Shown here: in pieces, positions 4,204 through 52,440 of the stretch | Numbering within the stretch: the first letter of the stretch is position 1 | Layout of the letters: every line of letters begins with the position of its first letter | Source: Candidatus Zipacnadia bacterium | GTDB taxonomy: Bacteria > Armatimonadota > Zipacnadia > Zipacnadales > JABUFB01 | Length of the DNA: 53,077 nucleotides | Direction of reading: 5' to 3' | NCBI GenBank assembly: GCA_029821745.1 | Contig: JALGSS010000002.1 | Location: 1-53,077, forward strand | Notes under the pieces: model-generated | Databases searched by the model: none | What the model was told of the DNA's origin: nothing | The model's input: only the letters and a program-made list of their open reading frames with translations | Made by a program: the position numbers and the translations under genes

Positions 4204-4307
4204 GGCTGTCGGCTCCTTCTTGCGAAAGTTGCTGCGGCGCAGCGCCAGTCTTTGTTGGGGCAACCGGGTGTGGACGAGATGCTCTCGATCTGTTTCTGCG
4301 GTGCCAA

Positions 4308-4460
4308 CTATCCACTCCGACCACCTGCTGCCATCTGCCTCTGGATGATGGGCAGGAGTTCGGCCCATGTCTCGGGGCGAAGTGTCAGTCCCTTGCGCGT
4401 GGGCCACGTGATGCACAGCGCCTCCTCGAGGCCCTCGTTGATCACAGTTGCTTCACTCAT
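4308..4460 (-). CDS. Hypothetical small protein, 50 aa
   Basis: MSEATVINEGLEEALCITWPTRKGLTLRPETWAELLPIIQRQMAAGGRSG*, preceded by GGGGAGGGATGGGAACGC ribosome-binding-like sequence. Confidence 0.4.
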   Translation of the reverse strand: MSEATVINEGLEEALCITWPTRKGLTLRPETWAELLPIIQRQMAAGGRSG

Positions 4461-4582
4461 GCGTTCCCATCCCTCCCCACGCACGGTCGTCGGGCCGTGC
4501 GATGCAAAGGGTGCAGCTGTGGTGCTGTGGTTCATCAAGCTAGGGGAGTTGTTCGATCTGGGGGTGTCGGGAGAGGACGGCT

Positions 4583-4990
4583 CTACATGGCAGCCGCTAG
4601 TTCCCGACATTCCTCACTGCCCATCCAGTTGCGTAGTTCGTCCAACTGGGGGAGCCAACGGAATCCCGATCCGTAGTATCCTCTGTGGTCTCGATACATC
4701 CCTCAGATGGTGGTTCTGCACGACCCGGTAGCGGTGACTTGCGACCCCCGGTCGTCCCGGGCTGCTCCTCATCTGAGGGATCAGAAGTCTGCCTGTGTAG
4801 TCTCCTCTGCAGCCCAAGCTCCTCTGAAACCACGCCTCTTCCCGGAGTCAGAGTGTCAACGCCACGAGAGCAACCACCCAACGACGACAGCAGGAAGTTC
4901 GCCTCACAGGCTGAACTCTCTCACTGCAGATGGTATCAAGACGGGGGCAAGAGCAAGCGCATCCGATGCCAACATAACACAAGGACCGAC
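4583..4990. repeat. Dispersed intergenic repeat copy: micro-ORF block, VVQNHH block and IS3-like right end
   Basis: CCATCCAGTTGCGTAGTTCGTCCAACTGGGGGAGCC ... GATGGTGGTTCTGCACGACC ... AGCAGGAAGTTCGCCTCACAGGCTGAACTCTCTCACTGCAGATGGTATCAAGACGGGGGCAAGAG shared with other sites. Confidence 0.8.
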
Positions 4991-11961: not shown

Positions 11962-12285
11962 TCAGGCCCCGCCACCCCCACCATACGGGCTGATTGGTCG
12001 CACAGCCTTCGCCAACTCCCGGCACTCCTCACTGCTCATCCAGTTGCGTAGTTCGTGCAATAGGGGGAGCCATCGATTTTGCGAATACCACAGGCCGTCC
12101 CTCACCGAGGGGCGGCCTGTTTGGTGTACGGTCAGGCGACAGAAGCGCCCTGAAATGGCCAGCAGGCTTCCACCATGTGCGTGGTGAACTCCCCCCTGCG
12201 GGTGGCATCAAGACGGGGGCAACAGCAAACCCACCGAACTGCCGCGTAGAGTGTGGTATCGCTTGTGGTGGCAGGTCAGGCGGGA
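11962..12285. repeat. Dispersed intergenic repeat copy: micro-ORF block, hairpin and degenerate IS3-like end
   Basis: GGCACTCCTCACTGCTCATCCAGTTGCGTAGTTCGTGCAATAGGGGGAGCCATCGATTTT; GGTGGCATCAAGACGGGGGCAACAG; GGTATCGCTTGTGGTGGCAGGTCAGG. Confidence 0.75.
12090..12120 (+). terminator. Hairpin with short T run, intrinsic-terminator-like
   Basis: ACAGGCCGTCCCTC-ACC-GAGGGGCGGCCTGT followed by TT; 14-bp stem with one G-T wobble. Confidence 0.65.
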
Positions 12286-12355: not shown

Positions 12356-15300
12356 ATGCTCAGATATGCGTTCACAGTGGCGAACGCGGTACTGATGGCC
12401 CTCAGCGGCACACAGGTTGACGCGATCAACATCGATGGGAACATGAACGACTGGACGGGCGGGGTAGCGTACGAGATGCCGCAGGAGGCGCTGGAGGCGA
12501 TCGAGACGCCCTTCGCGGCCGTGGAGCAACTGTGGGTGGCGCACGATGACACCTTCCTCTACTTCCGGATCCGCTGGGAGCGGCCACGCCCGTTCGTGGA
12601 CGAGACGCAAGCGGAGTTCGTGACGGACTACTGGGCCAACCGGCGCTACATAGTGTTGGATGTCAACGGCGACGCGCGGGGCGACTACATGACCACCCAG
12701 ATCGCTCTGAAGGACACGGGTCTCAACCGCACTTACGTGGTCGCTCTCTCCGGCGAGAAGCCGCAGACCTACCTGTGGTACGAGGGGCACGCAGACTGGG
12801 ACGCGGAAACGGGGCCAATGGGGCACTACTCGCCGGATGGGCGGGAGATCGAGATCCGGGTGCCGCGGGAGCCGCTGAGCGTTCAGGGCACGACGATCGG
12901 CGTGCAGGTGAAGATGAGCATCCGCGACGCGCTGGAGGGGACGAACGCGTGGACCAACGACATGTACCCGTCCGCGGACACGTGGTTCCTCTACGACCTC
13001 GCGTCCGCGGCAGCGGTGCAGCCGGTGGAGGCCGGCGGGCCGCCGGCCTTCGAGATGGTGCGGGCGGAACGGGCGCCGGAGCTTGACGGGGTGCTCGATG
13101 ACGCGGCGTGGCAGGGCGCGCCGGTGCTGGCGAGCTTCCTGCTCAACCGCGGAAGTGCTGCCGCGCAGGCGCAGACGCGCGCGCAGATCACTTGGGACGA
13201 CCGCGCGCTCTACCTCGCGGTCCTCGCTGAGGAGCCGCGGATGGACCTGCTCAAGACTGACGCGGTCGAGGCTGAGGCCAAGCGGGTGTGGGGGGATGAC
13301 CTGATCGAGCTGTTCGTGGACTTCCACAACGACAAGAAGACCTTCACGCACCTGGGGATCACGGCGGCGGGGGCGACGGTCGGGCAGTTCAACGTGGTGC
13401 GCGGTTCGACGAAGACCGCGATCGACATCGAGCCGGAGATCGACGTGGCATGGCAGCGCGGGGAAGACCACTGGACCGCGGAGGCGGCGATCGGGTGGAG
13501 TACGTTCGGAGTGAAGCCGCGCGCGGGCGAGGTGTGGGGACTGAACGTGAACCGCGGTCGGCCGCACGCTGGTGAGTACTCCTCGTGGGCGGGCGTGCAG
13601 GGCGGATTCCTGCAGCCGGAGGCGTTCGGGACGATGTACTTCCCGCACGAGAGTGGGCTGCGCGTGACCAGCCGCGGGATGGCCGCTCGAGCGGGCAACG
13701 CGAGCCAGGCGAACCTGTTCACCGCGGAGATGGCGGACGGGCCGCTGGCGGCGACGGTGTCAGTGAGCGCGGGGGGCGACGAGAGCTTCTCCGACAGCGC
13801 GACCGCGGCGGCCGGGGAGACGCTGGAGTTGCCCTACGTGGTCGGTGGCGATGCGGGGGAGACGGTCGCATTCAGCGTGACCAGTGGAGGCGAGGCGCTC
13901 TACGAGGCGACGGTGCCGGTGGTGCAGACGGAGTTCCCGAAGGTGTGGATCACCCAGAACCCGGTGTACCAGGAGTTGCTGGGAGAGGGCGGGCCGGGCA
14001 CGGGCGGCGGGGGCGCGATGTACTGGGCGCACGACCTCAATGGCGGGAAGATCGCGCCGGTGGCGCTCAAGCACGCGCAGCCGTGGACGCTGCGAGGGTC
14101 GTACGAGCAGGCGGTGCAGTACGGGCTGCACTACTTCGACGGCGGGACGCTGATGGGGAGAAACCCGTTTCAGACGCGAGAGTTCGCCGACGAGCTTGGT
14201 GTGAAGGTGATCTACTCGGTCGGCCACCGCGCGGGGACGGAGGACGCTCCGCGCGAGGCCAACGGCTACGCATACGTGCTGGACTACGACAACCAGGAGG
14301 TCTTCTTCGAGCGCGTGCGCGACTACCTCGGCGAGTGGGGTGAGCACGTGTGGGGGGTGACTTGCGGCGATGAGTTCCAGGACCACCAGATCACGCTGGG
14401 GCTAAAGCTCCACTACGACGATGACCCCTACCCGTTCATGGAGCAGGTGGATCGCGAGGTGCGCGACGAGTTCGGCTACGGGCAGTTCGGCATCCCCGAG
14501 ACGCTCGACGACCGCAACCCCTTCCGCTGGCTCGCGTACCGGCGGTGGTACAACGACCGCTTCGCGGACTTCCAGCGGCGGATCTACGAGGAAGTGAAGT
14601 CGATCGACGAGGATATCCTGGTCATCGGGCCCGACCCGGTCTCGCAGATCCAGCCCTTCGACTACTCCGGCTACGGGCGCTGGTGTGACGTGGTGACGCA
14701 CCAGACCTACCCGCGCGGTTCGCAGGAACAGGATGTGGCGTGGATCACGAAGACGCTGCGGGACCTGTCGGGGGCGGCGACGATGCCGTGCACGCACGTG
14801 GAGAACTACGCCAACAGCTTCCGTCCGGACGAGGTGCGGGAGCTGATGAGCCAGGTCTACCGCGGCGGCGGCGAGGGCTTCCACCTCTACATGCCGGACA
14901 CCGCCGGGCGGCGGACGCCGCACAACATGGAGCTGGACCGCTTCGGCTCGTGGCCGCGGAACCGGACGGTGCTGGGGATCTTGGAGACCACGCGGGTGAT
15001 GGATCTGCCGGTGCTGCCCGAGAGCGGTGCGGCGATGCTGTTCTCGAATGACGCCTACATGGCCGAGTTCCTCGGCGGGCGGCAGGGCAACGACCCCTAC
15101 CGGTGGATGTTCCAGCTCATCGGCCCCTACGCCGGCGGGTGGTTCACGGTCATCAGCGATAACCAGATCGCGCGCGATGAGATCGACCTGTCGGAGTACC
15201 ACACGATCTACCTGCCGGAGGCGGAGTATCAGCGGCGGGAGGTCGCGGGGGCGCTGGTGGCGTGGGTCGAGGCGGGCGGGCGGCTGATCGTGACGGATCC

Positions 15301-16249
15301 GGAGGCGTTCACGTGGCACCTGGACGGGTCGCGCATGGATGACCTGCGGGGGCGGCTGTTCCCCAAAGCGGGCGAGGCCATCACCGCCGGCTCGGTCAGC
15401 GCCGCCGCCGACTGTCCGGTGGCGATCGACGCGCAGCTGCCGGTCTTCTCTGAGGCGCTGCCGCTGCAGCTTGCGCAGGGAGACCGCGCGCTGCTGGCCT
15501 ATAACGACGGCTCCGTTGCTGCCGCAGCGCGGCCGGTGGGCGAGGGCGAGGTGTGGTACTTCGGTTTCGAACCGATGAGCCAGCGGGCACTGGGGTCGGA
15601 GTGGGTGGACTGGTGGGTGGGGGCGCATACGCTGATCGGGGAGGAGACGGACCTGCCCATCTGGCGCTTCACGCTGCCGCAGGTACCGGGTGTGGTGGTC
15701 GAGCCGCCGGAGGGACGGTGCGTGACCGGCAACTACCTGGCGTGGGACACTAACGAGGCGGTGCCGCTGGCGAACCTGAAGGTCGAGGGGAGCTACTCCT
15801 ACTCGGTGGCGCCGGACTGGGCGGCCGACGAGGGGGGTGTGGAGGGTGTGGCGTTCGCCGACGGAGACCTGGTGGACCGGTGGAGCGCGCTGAAGCATGA
15901 GGATGAGGACTACGGGGCGCACCTGCGCACATTCGCGGCGGCGTGGCAGAGCACGGAGCCGGTCACGATCGAGTTCGACCTCGGCAAGGTGTACGCGCTG
16001 GACCGAGTGTGGCTGCTGACGGGGCGGTCGCACCCCGCGATCGAGGTGACGGGGCTGGTAAACGGAGAGTGGGTACCGCTGGGCTCGGTGGCGGGCTTCG
16101 CGATGGAGAACGTGCACGACTTCCCGGAGCGGATGATCCCGCTCGTGGCAGATGCGCCCGCGGTGCAGCAGGTCAGGCTCGAGATCACCGCCCGCGAGGA
16201 AGGTCAGCGCCTCATCATCCCGGAGGTAGAGATCTGGGCGCGGGAGTAG
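12356..16249 (+). CDS. Large multidomain carbohydrate-active protein: two CBM9-like domains, TIM-barrel-like core, GATase-like and discoidin-like C-terminus
   Basis: INIDGNMNDWTGGV... and ELDGVLDDAAWQGAPVLASF... are CBM9-like openings; VWGVTCGDEFQDHQI core; EIDLSEYHTIYLPEAEYQRREVAGALVAWVEAGGRLIVTDPEAF GATase-like; 1297 aa. Confidence 0.6.
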   Translation: MLRYAFTVANAVLMALSGTQVDAINIDGNMNDWTGGVAYEMPQEALEAIETPFAAVEQLWVAHDDTFLYFRIRWERPRPFVDETQAEFVTDYWANRRYIVLDVNGDARGDYMTTQIALKDTGLNRTYVVALSGEKPQTYLWYEGHADWDAETGPMGHYSPDGREIEIRVPREPLSVQGTTIGVQVKMSIRDALEGTNAWTNDMYPSADTWFLYDLASAAAVQPVEAGGPPAFEMVRAERAPELDGVLDDAAWQGAPVLASFLLNRGSAAAQAQTRAQITWDDRALYLAVLAEEPRMDLLKTDAVEAEAKRVWGDDLIELFVDFHNDKKTFTHLGITAAGATVGQFNVVRGSTKTAIDIEPEIDVAWQRGEDHWTAEAAIGWSTFGVKPRAGEVWGLNVNRGRPHAGEYSSWAGVQGGFLQPEAFGTMYFPHESGLRVTSRGMAARAGNASQANLFTAEMADGPLAATVSVSAGGDESFSDSATAAAGETLELPYVVGGDAGETVAFSVTSGGEALYEATVPVVQTEFPKVWITQNPVYQELLGEGGPGTGGGGAMYWAHDLNGGKIAPVALKHAQPWTLRGSYEQAVQYGLHYFDGGTLMGRNPFQTREFADELGVKVIYSVGHRAGTEDAPREANGYAYVLDYDNQEVFFERVRDYLGEWGEHVWGVTCGDEFQDHQITLGLKLHYDDDPYPFMEQVDREVRDEFGYGQFGIPETLDDRNPFRWLAYRRWYNDRFADFQRRIYEEVKSIDEDILVIGPDPVSQIQPFDYSGYGRWCDVVTHQTYPRGSQEQDVAWITKTLRDLSGAATMPCTHVENYANSFRPDEVRELMSQVYRGGGEGFHLYMPDTAGRRTPHNMELDRFGSWPRNRTVLGILETTRVMDLPVLPESGAAMLFSNDAYMAEFLGGRQGNDPYRWMFQLIGPYAGGWFTVISDNQIARDEIDLSEYHTIYLPEAEYQRREVAGALVAWVEAGGRLIVTDPEAFTWHLDGSRMDDLRGRLFPKAGEAITAGSVSAAADCPVAIDAQLPVFSEALPLQLAQGDRALLAYNDGSVAAAARPVGEGEVWYFGFEPMSQRALGSEWVDWWVGAHTLIGEETDLPIWRFTLPQVPGVVVEPPEGRCVTGNYLAWDTNEAVPLANLKVEGSYSYSVAPDWAADEGGVEGVAFADGDLVDRWSALKHEDEDYGAHLRTFAAAWQSTEPVTIEFDLGKVYALDRVWLLTGRSHPAIEVTGLVNGEWVPLGSVAGFAMENVHDFPERMIPLVADAPAVQQVRLEITAREEGQRLIIPEVEIWARE

Positions 16250-16429
16250 GCGGCGGACGGCGCCCCTCTTCTTTGGACCGCAAACGGCGCAGTCCACGGC
16301 GGGCGAGGGGGAGCAAGGCATACTGCTCAGCAGGCTGGTCAATCGGGAACCAGAGGAAATCCACTTCTGGCTTGACCTTTCGGGCCATGGCAGCTTTGGC
16401 CATGCACCAGCCCCCATCCCCGCTCGAAT

Positions 16430-16620
16430 AGTGGTTCTGCACGACCTTGCGGTGGGGAGCCTTCAGATCAGCGAGTACCGCAGGCCGCCTCCCGGTTGAG
16501 GGGCGGCCTGTCTGCATCCCCGTCGTGCTCAGATGTCCCCGCAGGCAGGATATCTGCCTCACAGGCTGAACTCTCTCACCGCAGGTGGTATCAATACGGG
16601 GGCAAGAGCACAAGCGTTGT
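16430..16620. repeat. Dispersed intergenic repeat copy: VVQNHY block, hairpin, IS3-like right end
   Basis: TAGTGGTTCTGCACGACC ... GGCAGGATATCTGCCTCACAGGCTGAACTCTCTCACCGCAGGTGGTATCAATACGGGGGCAAGAG. Confidence 0.75.
16480..16511 (+). terminator. Hairpin related to the 12090 element
   Basis: GCAGGCCGCCTC-CCGGTT-GAGGGGCGGCCTGTC. Confidence 0.5.
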
Positions 16621-16666
16621 GGATCGGCTGCCGTTGAGTCAGCTGCAAACAGGAGGAGCCATCGCC

Positions 16667-19273
16667 ATGACCTGTTCTGCCGCTTTGCGGGTGTTCCGGC
16701 TTGTCGTCAGTCCCGGGTTTCTGAGTGCCGTTCTCACGGTCCTGTGCGGCTGTGCATGGCTGTCCCCGGCTTCCGCCCGCACCGTGCTGCTCTCGAGTGA
16801 CGGGGCGACCCGAGCGCGCATCGTCGTGCCGGACGAACCGTCCGAACGCGTTCAGCATGCGGCGACCGAGCTGGCCGACTTCCTCGAACGCAGCACGGAC
16901 GCGGGCTTCGAGGTCGTCGAGGAGGCCGCCGCCGGGGAAGCGGGCCCGGCTGACATCCACGTTGGCCCGACGAACGTTGTGCGAAGCCTCGACCTAGGAG
17001 TGGATGCGCTTGATGCGGACGGGTTCGTGCTGAGTTTTCCCCAGGATGGCGCGGCTGCCGTGGTGATCTGCGGGGCGAGTGACTACGGCACACAGTTCGG
17101 CGTCTACGAGTTCCTCGAGCGCTACGTTGGCATCCGGTGGCTGTTTCCCGGCGAGCTCGGCGAGCACGTACCGTCGCACGCAACACTGGACGTGCCGGCC
17201 ATGGAAGTGCGGGACGCGCCATCGTTCTTCTCCAGGCAGATGAGCGGCTTTCGGGGAAGGGAACAGGCAATCTGGGCTCAGCGCAACCGGATGCATGGAC
17301 GCATCAAGTTCCATCACAACTTGATCCGGCTGTTCCCCCCGGAAACCTACACTGAGACGCATCCTGAGTTCTTCCCGATTCAGAACGGGACGCGGTTCCT
17401 GCCGGAGACGAATAGCACGCATCACTGGCAGCCGTGCTACACGGCGCCCGGGATCGTCGAAGAGGCCGTCACGAACATCAACGCGTTTTTCGATACGCAC
17501 CCGGATGCGCCCTCGTATTCGTTGGGTGCCAACGACAGTAGCGGGTACTGCCAGTGCGATGCGTGCATGGCGCAGATACCGGGAACCGACAACTTCTTGG
17601 GCCGGGTCGACTACTCCGACCTGTACTACGACTGGGCCAACAAGGTGATCGAGCGCGTGCTCGAGGAGCATCCCGACAAATACTTCGGTTGCCTGGCCTA
17701 CAGCGAAGTCGCCGCGCCGCCAGAGGCTGTCAGTGTCCATCCCCGCATGATCCCCTACATGACCTACGACCGCATGAAGTGGCTGGGCGAGGAGATCGAG
17801 AGCGAAGGCCACGAGATGACCCGTGATTGGGCTGCGGCCAGCCCGACTCTTGGCTGGTACGACTACATCTATGGGAGGTCGTACTGCGTTCCTCGCGTCT
17901 GGTTCCACAAGATGGGAGAGTACTACCGTTTCGGCTTCGCCAACAACGTCCGCTGTTCGTACGCCGAGGCCTATCCGAGCGAGGACTGGCGCGAGGGTCC
18001 GAAGCTGTACATCTCGCTCAAACTGCTCTGGGACCCGTCCCGTGACGTCGACGAACTCCTCGACGACTGGTACCGCTGCGCGGTTGGGCCCGAGGCCGCG
18101 CCGGCACTGGCGGCCTACTACCGGTTCTGGGAAGAGTTCTGGGCGGGACCGGTCCTGGAAACCGAGTGGTTCAAGAATGCGCGGAAGCGGCAGTATCTGA
18201 ACTTCCATGCGACGGGCTACCTCGACGCGCTGAGCGATGGTGATCTGAGCCGCTGTGATGAATTGCTGACTGAGGTCCTCGAGAAGTCCCGGACCGAACT
18301 GCAGAAGACCCGGGCGCGGAAGTTCCTTGATGACTTCCACGCGTTCATCGAGCCGGTAACCGGCGAGATCGAGACTCGTTTGCGTGAGCAGGCCACCCGA
18401 GAGTTGACGGTCGAGGCCGTGCAGCGGATGGCGGAGGTGCGGTCGTTGACCGGCCCAGCCGCAGCGCAGGCGCTCGATGCCTACCGAACATGGCTTTCCG
18501 AGCAGCAGGAAACCCCGATGACCGGCGCCCTGACCCTCACGGCAGGACTTCTCGCCGAACGTGGCGGTCGCGCCGGCGCATGGACGGAGGCGCTTGCCTC
18601 CAGTCCGTGGGGCGCCACATCGTCGGCCTGGCTGCTGAAGTCTCTCGAAAAGCTTGACCCGACCGCCGTCCTGGCGAGCGAGGAACTCCCGGTTGTACGC
18701 GCGTCGGAAGTACCGGTCATCGACGGGGAGCTCGACGAGGCCTGTTGGCGCGATGCCCAGAAGATCGGGGATTTCGTGGACTATATTCAGAACACGATGG
18801 TCGAACAGCCGACGTTCGTGGCGGCTGCGTATGACAGCGCGAATCTGTATCTCGGTTACGTGTGCCTGCAAAGCGACATGCAGACGCTGGTGGCGTCGTG
18901 CCGTGAGCACGATGGGGCGGTCTGGCGCGACGACTGCGTCGAATTCTTCGTCAGTCCCTCGGCTGAACCCGATAAGTTCTACCAAATGATCGTGAATACC
19001 ATCGGGACAACTTTCGATGCCGGCGGCAAGAGCTGGGTGAAATGGGATCCATCCTGGCAAGCCAAGGTGGTGAAGGGGGATCTGTTCTGGACGGTCGAGA
19101 TGGCTGTTCCTTTTGCGGCCCTCTCAGGCCCAGTTCCAGAGGCCGGCGATGTCTGGGGGGCCAACTTCACGCGTTCGCGCGGTCGCGTCGGTCAGCAGTT
19201 CATCGGCGTATGGCGCTTTGCCGACGGCAAGAACAACGACATCGCGCAATACGGCCGACTCGTGTTCAGGTAG
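16667..19273 (+). CDS. Secreted DUF4838-type protein with C-terminal CBM9-like domain
   Basis: N-terminal signal; alpha-glucuronidase-like N-domain ...GTQFGVYEFLERYVGIRWLFPGELGEHVP; YSLGANDSSGYCQCDAC; C-term VPVIDGELDEACWRDAQKIGDFVDY; AGGAGG RBS. Confidence 0.65.
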   Translation: MTCSAALRVFRLVVSPGFLSAVLTVLCGCAWLSPASARTVLLSSDGATRARIVVPDEPSERVQHAATELADFLERSTDAGFEVVEEAAAGEAGPADIHVGPTNVVRSLDLGVDALDADGFVLSFPQDGAAAVVICGASDYGTQFGVYEFLERYVGIRWLFPGELGEHVPSHATLDVPAMEVRDAPSFFSRQMSGFRGREQAIWAQRNRMHGRIKFHHNLIRLFPPETYTETHPEFFPIQNGTRFLPETNSTHHWQPCYTAPGIVEEAVTNINAFFDTHPDAPSYSLGANDSSGYCQCDACMAQIPGTDNFLGRVDYSDLYYDWANKVIERVLEEHPDKYFGCLAYSEVAAPPEAVSVHPRMIPYMTYDRMKWLGEEIESEGHEMTRDWAAASPTLGWYDYIYGRSYCVPRVWFHKMGEYYRFGFANNVRCSYAEAYPSEDWREGPKLYISLKLLWDPSRDVDELLDDWYRCAVGPEAAPALAAYYRFWEEFWAGPVLETEWFKNARKRQYLNFHATGYLDALSDGDLSRCDELLTEVLEKSRTELQKTRARKFLDDFHAFIEPVTGEIETRLREQATRELTVEAVQRMAEVRSLTGPAAAQALDAYRTWLSEQQETPMTGALTLTAGLLAERGGRAGAWTEALASSPWGATSSAWLLKSLEKLDPTAVLASEELPVVRASEVPVIDGELDEACWRDAQKIGDFVDYIQNTMVEQPTFVAAAYDSANLYLGYVCLQSDMQTLVASCREHDGAVWRDDCVEFFVSPSAEPDKFYQMIVNTIGTTFDAGGKSWVKWDPSWQAKVVKGDLFWTVEMAVPFAALSGPVPEAGDVWGANFTRSRGRVGQQFIGVWRFADGKNNDIAQYGRLVFR

Positions 19274-21061: not shown

Positions 21062-21531
21062 TGGTCTGAACCCCGGATCTTGGTCCACCTGGAATGAGAG
21101 TGGATGAAGGCGTATGGTGGTTGAGGGCGGACCGATAGCGCTGAAGCGGCAGCGCTGAACCGGGCACCTGCTCAGATAGCAGCCGCCAGTTCCCGGCACT
21201 CCTCACTGCCCATCCAGTTGCGTAGTTCGTCCAATAGGGGGAGCCATCGATTTCACGAATGCGTCGGGTTGCCCCTCCTTCGAGGGGCGGCCCGTTTGCT
21301 TGTCCACTACTGCGTTCGCGGACAAGTACCTCCGCCGTGGCCCCCCTCTTCTCCGACCGCGCCACTTCAGTGAGTCAGGGCGCCAATGGCATGTGGAGAG
21401 CGACTCGTCGCCAGTAGCAGGATACCTGCCTCACAGGCGGAGATCTCTCGCTGCAGGTGGTATCAAGACGGGGGCAATACCAGAGGCCCAAAGTACCACA
21501 TAGGAACTGGTATCACTCACGAGGGCAGGTC
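21062..21531. repeat. Near-complete copy of the dispersed repeat (MITE-like, ~420 bp core) plus outer block
   Basis: Left TTGGTCTGAACCCCGGATCTTGGTCCACCTGGAATGAGAGTGG; right end (reverse complement) TGGTATTGCCCCCGTCTTGATACCACCTGCAGCGAGAG; micro-ORF and hairpin inside; outer GGAACTGGTATCACTCACGAGGGCAGGTCA. Confidence 0.75.
21265..21294 (+). terminator. Hairpin related to the 12090 element
   Basis: CGGGTTGCCCCTC-CTTC-GAGGGGCGGCCCG followed by TTT. Confidence 0.6.
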
Positions 21532-24689: not shown

Positions 24690-24850
24690 CCCCATAGCTC
24701 CATATCCACGCTCGCCAATATAGTGGTTCTGTATGACCTTGGGGTGGGGGAGCCCGATACTCCGATCCACAGTGCCCCTGTACTCCCGCCGCGCCTCCTA
24801 TGGTAGTTCTGCGTTACCCCGCAGGGGCATAGCCCACGGTTGCGGACATT
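24690..24850. repeat. Partial copy of the dispersed repeat (VIQNHY/VTQNYH block)
   Basis: CCCCATAGCTCCATATCCACGCTCGCCAATATAGTGGTTCTGTATGACCTTGGGGTGGGGGAG, matching 38259..38320. Confidence 0.6.
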
Positions 24851-26938: not shown

Positions 26939-27100
26939 GTCTGAATCCCGTCTTCTCATCCACCGGGAGTGATAGATGAAGGCACATGCTGGTTCTGGGA
27001 GGCCCAATGGCGACGCGGCGGAAGCGCTGAGACGAGCATCTGGTCAGATAGCAGCCGCCAGTTCCCGACACTCCTCACTGGACATCCAGTTGCGGAGTTG
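26939..27100. repeat. Left end and micro-ORF block of the dispersed repeat
   Basis: CTGGTCTGAATCCCGTCTTCTCATCCACCGGGAGTGATAGATGAAGGCAC...GCAGCCGCCAGTTCCCGACACTCCTCACTGGACATCCAGTTGCGGAGTTGG. Confidence 0.65.
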
Positions 27101-27148
27101 GTCCAACTCGGGGAGCGCAATCAGGATGACCTTGCCCGAGTTGCTCAT
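27044..27148 (-). CDS. Small ORF, 34 aa: MSNSGKVILIALPELDQLRNWMSSEECRELAAAI*
   Basis: ATG preceded by CGGAGGGAACGCAG; starts ~20 nt after the preceding minus-strand gene; C-terminal 24 residues recur at four other intergenic sites. Confidence 0.55.
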   Translation of the reverse strand: MSNSGKVILIALPELDQLRNWMSSEECRELAAAI

Positions 27149-38069: not shown

Positions 38070-38254
38070 GAAGGCGATCCACCAAGTCGCGCCTTCTGGG
38101 ATCTTGTCCCTCCCGTCCCCCCGTATTGCTGCTTCACGCGACGTGCAGCATGACTTGCCTTCGTGCCGATCTCACTACCACGATCGCGCAGCTCAGCCCC
38201 ACAAGCGCCCTTCGCCCCGCTTCCTCCCAGAACGCCCAGACAAGCTCCTCAAAA

Positions 38255-38400
38255 CCCCATACCTCCATATCCACACCCGCCAATATGGTGGTTCTGTATG
38301 ACCTGGGAGTGGGGAGTCAGCAAGATCCCGACCCACAGCATCCTCTGCGGCCTTGAGCGGACCGACAGGTGATACGAGTTCCTATGTGGTACTTTGGCCG
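38255..38400. repeat. Partial copy of the dispersed repeat (VIQNHH block and inverted outer block)
   Basis: CCATACCTCCATATCCACACCCGCCAATATGGTGGTTCTGTATGACC; GATACGAGTTCCTATGTGGTACTTTGG is the inverse of 21495..21520. Confidence 0.65.
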
Positions 38401-51890: not shown

Positions 51891-52440
51891 TTGGTCTGAA
51901 CCCCGCACATTGGTCCACTTGGGGTGAGAGTGGATGAAGGCGTGCGGTGCTTCCAGGAGGGCGGATGACGATGCCGCGAAAGCGTTGGCCCGATCGGTAA
52001 GTCAGATCAGCGCCGCCAACTCCCGCACTCTTCGCCCGCCATCCAGTTGCGGAGTTCTTTCAGCAGGGGGAGCCAGCAAGATCCCGATCCATAGCTCCCC
52101 TTGGGGCTTTGGCGTACCCCTCCTGTGGTGGTTCCGCACGACCCAGTAGTGGTGGCCTGCAGTTTCCGGTCGTCCCGAGCTGTTCCTCATCTGAGGGACC
52201 GGCAGTCTGCCTTTGCAGTCTCCTCTGCAGCCCAAGCTCCTCGCCAATCACGCCTCCTACCGGAGTCAGAGCGCCAACGCCACGACAGCAACCACGCGAC
52301 GGCATGGGCAGGTAGCCTGCTCTTCAGGCCGAACACTCTCACTGCCGGTGGCACCAAGACGGGGGCAAGACCAAAGCGGCCAGGTTAGCGCGCAGGCCCA
52401 CGGCCTCACGCGGTACGAGTTTTCGATAGGGACAGGTCAC
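51891..52440. repeat. Near-complete copy of the dispersed repeat (MITE-like) plus outer block
   Basis: Left ATTGGTCTGAACCCCGCACATTGGTCCACTTGGGGTGAGAGTGG; right end reverse complement TGGTCTTGCCCCCGTCTTGGTGCCACCGGCAGTGAGAGTG; frameshifted micro-ORF block inside. Confidence 0.75.

Follow-up and report, generated by a model that had tools for sequence, protein, structure and literature searches.

An orphan small ORF with clear codon-level selection is normally annotated as a new micro-protein, and the initial annotation of this locus took it in that way, as a dispersed micro-protein gene on a mobile element. The question is whether this ORF is a gene of its own or a part of something larger. The window (the whole stretch of DNA analysed, 53,077 nt) comes from an MAG of the Armatimonadota (Candidatus Zipacnadia lineage; 7.0 Mb, 1168 contigs, 88% complete, 6.6% contamination). 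The ORF at 27148–27044 on the minus strand is present, with 34 codons and the translation given at first. A tblastn search within the window confirms its four further sites (E 1e-5 to 1e-11), and the 1-nt frameshift in the copy at 52075–52002 is real as well. The positions of these sites hold but their direction does not: three had been written in ascending order, yet all five copies lie on the minus strand. The features of the window are the following:

4583–4657, minus strand: tail B copy a, WLPQLDELRNWMGSEECRELAAAM and a stop codon, starting with the att-like core TGGCTCCCC
11998–12072, minus strand: tail B copy b, WLPLLHELRNWMSSEECRELAKAV, with the stop codon changed to CGA
16413–16462, minus strand: right half N, a second kind of junction arm, not codon-conserved
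21062–21483, unstranded: complete composite repeat of 420 bp, in which inverted-repeat-like ends (TGGTCT..AGACCA) enclose U1, junction, tail B and D1
21172–21246, minus strand: tail B copy c, WLPLLDELRNWMGSEECRELAAAI and a stop codon, from protein and DNA searches
21238–21246, minus strand: 9-bp junction TGGCTCCCC, identical to the tRNA-Asn 3′ end in antisense; recurs at 4657, 12072 and 52075, with near-matches before N tails
21247–21300, minus strand: left half U1, a terminator-like hairpin (antisense direction) adjoining the junction
24690–24755, minus strand: right half N
27044–27148, minus strand: the ORF first annotated, a putative integrase tail (27044–27115) with 11 unrelated codons before it, with ATG and GGAGGG
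38252–38319, minus strand: right half N, adjoining left half U2
51892–52374, unstranded: second complete composite repeat, with U2, junction and tail B
52002–52075, minus strand: tail B copy e, with a 1-nt deletion after the Cys codon

What the copies share is a block of 75 bp with exact borders, running from TGG (typically TGGCTCCCC) to the stop codon. The sequences flanking it differ between copies, and several repeat modules are shuffled on both sides. All five B tails and three N arms of the window are on the minus strand, and the gene groups between the junctions (sulfatase, glycosidase-like, PDZ-containing and others) are on both strands. No LSR (large serine recombinase) was found at the window junctions and no anchoring tRNA in the window array. 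The window also holds a small ORF, MSEATVINEGLEEALCITWPTRKGLTLRPETWAELLPIIQRQMAAGGRSG, at about 4285–4440 on the minus strand, with GGAGGGATGGGAACGC preceding its ATG.

Codon-level selection on a recurrent tail

Searches of the whole genome gave exactly 22 copies, followed by a clean gap in E-value (2e-11 to 0.13). Since protein and DNA searches return the same 22, the set carries no bias in favour of open frames. The selection on the peptide that had been suggested for the window is borne out at this scale: pN/pS is 0.27 in the annotated frame over 21 copies, versus 0.51 to 2.6 in the other five frames. A minimum-spanning tree gives a synonymous share of 0.51, compared with 0.25 ± 0.03 under neutrality (simulated maximum 0.33), and it is 0.42 versus 0.24 when copies from other genomes are included; nearest-neighbour comparison of copies gives about 0.29. 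Codons 5–24 are open in 21/21 unshifted copies versus 13.6 expected under neutral change, the maximum among 500 neutral simulation runs being likewise 21. TGA or TAG, both of which occur, is kept at codon 25 in 18 of the 21.

The N arm ("N tail"), a control repeat at the same junction, has no frame signal (0.67–1.28); therefore, the coding signal of the tail is not generic to these repeats, and the idea of the N arm as a further micro-gene (MAPHPKVVQNHYIGGCGYGGMGF) was rejected. The reading frame of the tail is under purifying selection. Other candidates were also set aside: a structured RNA, as there is no Rfam match and no conserved fold on either strand (alifold), and a +1 frameshift from ATGGCTCCCC into the tail, as relatives do not conserve the upstream base.

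The peptide occurs in 14 of 61 related genomes, the source genome counted. A pattern scan of 85k species returned six matches, which are MAGs named Armatimonadota/Armatimonadetes or Candidatus Zipacnadia, two being labelled only "bacterium"; the named ones belong to the Armatimonadota, several being MAGs of Candidatus Zipacnadia. Neither the peptide nor the G005 LSR C-terminus plus tail had a relevant match in Pfam, phage, plasmid or viral-contig searches, and an incomplete literature search found no published description of this tail.

Recombinase joins and tRNA gene ends

At six places, the frame runs on upstream into the C-terminus of an LSR, and the peptide is thus essentially the tail of a known full-length protein, the outcome that the initial annotation had itself set against its micro-gene. 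The joins lie twice in the source genome (contigs C30 and C252) and in four other genomes (G005 C59, G010 C73, G015 C11 and G016 C95), in frame in 6/6 cases. The longer piece, on C30, has a recombinase zinc ribbon, and that on C252 is also a serine recombinase C-terminus. In profile searches, LSRs of the source genome and of G020 match XisF/Ccr recombinase models and the Pfam recombinase zinc ribbon, with a weak match to the A118 integrase (E 0.03). The joins in G005, G010, G015 and G016 involve LSRs of another subgroup than that of C30, in G016 with the last few residues only; the G005 fragment has no profile match by itself and aligns at 83–89% to LSR ORFs of 524 aa and others. All LSR–tail joins are 5′-truncated, and no intact LSR with both catalytic domain and tail was found.

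The other LSRs and the tyrosine recombinases of the source genome were rejected as sources of the tail, being different families without it; the exception is a set of broken tyrosine recombinase pieces surrounding one tail copy on C241. As separate observations, locus L222 on C241 contains a CRISPR array (14464–18949, repeat GTCGCCCCCCGCACGGGGGCGTGGATTGAAAC) together with a Cas3-like ORF, close to which lie a tail copy and broken tyrosine recombinase genes, and tandem repeats of about 28, 58 and 85 bp (ACCCCATGACGGTTAACC..) at 4327–4747 beside tyrosine recombinase fragments. At L020 and L025, the tail is preceded, within about 500 bp, by an inverted-repeat module of ~100 nt (GAGATTATCCTGTG..CACAGGATAATTGAG), with a tyrosine recombinase on the other side of the module; this module is common to two families, with 81% identity over the region.

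Full-length LSRs of the G005/G010/G015/G016 subgroup (512–524 aa, with N-terminal resolvase-like sequence) have 3′ ends that lie within tRNA genes. The final codons correspond to the antisense strand of the 3′ end of tRNA-Asn (TGGCTCCCCGGG..) or tRNA-Asp (TGGCGGGGCT..), and these are the start sequences of the two tail types. The proteins end in NWLPGADSNHQPTG or NWLPGPDSNQQPSG in tRNA-Asn and in VWRG in tRNA-Asp, and the G020 LSR, nearer to the C30 type, terminates with DWLPGPDSNQQPNG in tRNA-Asn. ARAGORN reported tRNA-Asn, -Asp, -Ala, -Glu or -Gln in nearly all LSR-end loci scanned. In the source genome, the tRNA-Asn 3′ end, read in antisense, equals the first nine bases of the peptide module, TGGCTCCCC. 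Tails of the second type (G016, G035) start with TGGCGGGGCT or TGGCGGGCC and resemble the tRNA-Asp end. Two tRNA-Asn genes were found in the fragmented source assembly, neither at an island or array.

The LSR motif KPFCWLAEG is encoded by a hairpin, CCCTTCTGCTGGNTNGCAGAAGGG (LSR 3′ ends L248, L251, L253, L256 and L279). Its opposite strand is terminator-like, with a T-run about 15–20 nt past the tRNA CCA, and the integrase end may provide the terminator of the tRNA (dual coding).

Proposed island junctions and competing origins of the repeats

Given the in-frame joins, the LSR ends within tRNA genes and the identity of TGGCTCCCC with the tRNA-Asn end, the peptide is best read as an LSR tail lying beyond the att crossover. 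We consider it quite probable that it is the detached C-terminal tail (last 24 codons) of an LSR family that inserts islands at tRNA 3′ ends, at tRNA-Asn for this type. We hypothesize that, in a circular island, the integrase gene would span the crossover TGGCTCCCC and end in ...WLPLLDELRNWMSSEECRELAAAI. Integration would cut the gene at the crossover; the integrase half would remain beside the tRNA, whose antisense strand would supply the gene's final codons (...WLPGPDSNQQPNG and a stop), and the 24-codon tail would come to lie at the island's opposite end and resemble an orphan micro-gene. Repeated insertion would yield tandem islands with one tail per junction and the same orientation throughout. 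Such islands would also be expected to excise and the arrays to be mobile, the tail would have a function, and most of the copies found here would be island ends.

Three of the four att configurations were seen directly (LSR plus tRNA, LSR plus tail and intact tRNA); a free circle was not among the forms observed. Flank plus tail, the commonest form here, fits the fourth recombination product, the flank presumably being of tRNA origin. On contig C95 of G016, a tRNA-Asp-type tail lies at 31.7 kb and an LSR ending in tRNA-Asp lies 24.5 kb downstream in the same orientation, with DNA methylase and restriction-type helicase (restriction–methylation), D5-type primase and resolvase genes between them. 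G023 (C722) has the same tail/LSR order for the tRNA-Asn type as far as the contig end, which comes before the tRNA. The order in these two genomes supports the tail as the end of the integrase gene past the att core, separated from it by integration; G035 is discordant, with tail and LSR on one contig in opposite orientations. Orientation is uniform per contig in 28/28 junctions on seven contigs (random expectation about 2^-21), which fits tandem accretion, and the window looks like a tandem array of island junctions in one orientation. C627, which has N arms only, shows mixed orientation (2 to 1).

A detached tail explains codon-level selection without translation of the orphan copies. Carriage by mobile DNA, as initially proposed, is supported. 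Several observations count against this reading, among them the discordant G035, the lack of any intact LSR with a tail and the two tRNA-Asn genes of the source assembly, neither of which bears an island. LSR remnants, all 5′-truncated, are present at only about 3 of roughly 36 junctions in the source genome. Likeness to tRNA past the 9–10-bp core is not significant; on the same ground (tRNA-Asn and tRNA-Asp, beyond the last 10 nt), we rejected the tail as a tRNA pseudogene. Tails without an LSR still look constrained in the nearest-neighbour comparison. Finally, there are many copies of the left halves U1, U2 and U4, often within the 420-bp composite with its inverted-repeat ends, and this pattern points to a second amplification process. 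LSR integration alone does not explain these repeated left halves together with the inverted-repeat-like ends (TGGTCTTGCCCCCGTCTTGATACCACC / GGTGGACCAAGATCCGGGGTTCAGACCA) of the composites, which measure 420–480 bp. The N arm has 14 copies genome-wide, joined at the same TGGCTCCCC-type junction and conserved chiefly over its initial ~35 nt; on C30, an LSR 3′ end precedes it (L275).

Alternatively, the tail repeats would be a pre-existing genomic target (secondary attB) for LSR insertion and not a part of the integrase gene. The lack of an LSR at most copies speaks for such a target, as does the joining of the same tail by LSRs with differing C-terminal sequences; however, the B/A joins are all in frame (6/6), and a mere target would give no reason for selection at the codon level, which makes this origin improbable. 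We judge it very improbable that the repeats are MITE-like element DNA (420 bp, with inverted-repeat-like ends) that holds an old transposase or integrase tail by chance and is amplified by a transposase in trans. Composite copies with inverted-repeat-like ends and mosaic flanks are what such an element would offer, but orientation is uniform within contigs, unlike in DDE transposition, the tail is found across the order beside other flanks, and the nearest copies still show selection. Least credible is the dispersed stand-alone micro-protein gene on a mobile element: strong codon-level constraint, a conserved stop and one copy with ATG and GGAGGG favour it, but the start codon and Shine–Dalgarno-like motif that made the ORF seem a complete gene belong to that copy alone (a second copy flagged for a start is an artefact of a slice at the edge of the examined region), no conserved start or upstream base was found across the order, several copies (e.g., L002 and L009) have an in-frame stop 0–2 codons upstream, and the frame extends into an LSR at six places.

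Related systems and meaning of the tail

The closest precedent for such a detached integrase tail is that of the ssrA islands of Dehalococcoides and their integrase DsiB. There, the dsiB 3′ end always overlaps the att site, running into the RNA gene or the next island, and DsiB, found in 2011 to be divergent at that end, may be complete only on the circle or beside an island with the requisite 3′ fragment (McMurdie et al. 2011, PMC3146451). The two systems have in common a CcrB-like serine recombinase, insertion at an RNA gene 3′ end and tandem islands with direct repeats, some without integrase (PMC3146451). Unlike in Dehalococcoides, where the target is tmRNA, the target here is tRNA-Asn or tRNA-Asp, and the 3′ fragment can be named: a conserved tail of 24 codons on which purifying selection acts. 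This tail, with the selection on it, resembles the 3′ fragment proposed to be missing from dsiB.

Tyrosine-integrase islands in Islander likewise have the tRNA 3′ end as att site, displaced fragments and tandem arrays, and some tyrosine integrases (Mx8, SSV) reach across attP (PMC4383910). The recombinase here is instead of the serine family; according to this tRNA-island resource, targeting of tDNAs is not known for serine integrases (PMC4383910), and the LSRs described here do use tRNA genes as targets. In mycobacteriophage BPs, integration can switch the C-terminus of the repressor (PMC4557955). As in BPs, an attP within a gene would give different C-termini in free and integrated forms, but the gene here is the integrase and not a repressor, whose longer form in BPs carries an ssrA-like tag.

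Chromosomal integron arrays hold many recombination sites in one orientation with cargo genes between them. The arrays described here are alike in both respects and differ in their tRNA 3′ end core and serine recombinase; no integron integrase or attC fold was identified here.

We tentatively propose, as a possibility that we hold to be rather unlikely, that integration exchanges the integrase C-terminus, from a selected 24-residue tail in the free circle to tRNA-encoded residues in the integrated form, so that the enzyme would report its integration state, favouring integration or stability in one form, and that arrays of cargo genes, integron-like and chromosome-scale, arose in Zipacnadia through the same system at tRNA-type att cores.

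If the detached-tail reading is right, the tail marks the ends of mobile islands, which would caution small-protein surveys and help to locate island ends. It would also provide sequence evidence for the 2011 suggestion from Dehalococcoides that a serine integrase is complete only once the 3′ piece across the att site is joined, and a defined target for asking whether the C-terminus sets the direction or the stability of the integrase.
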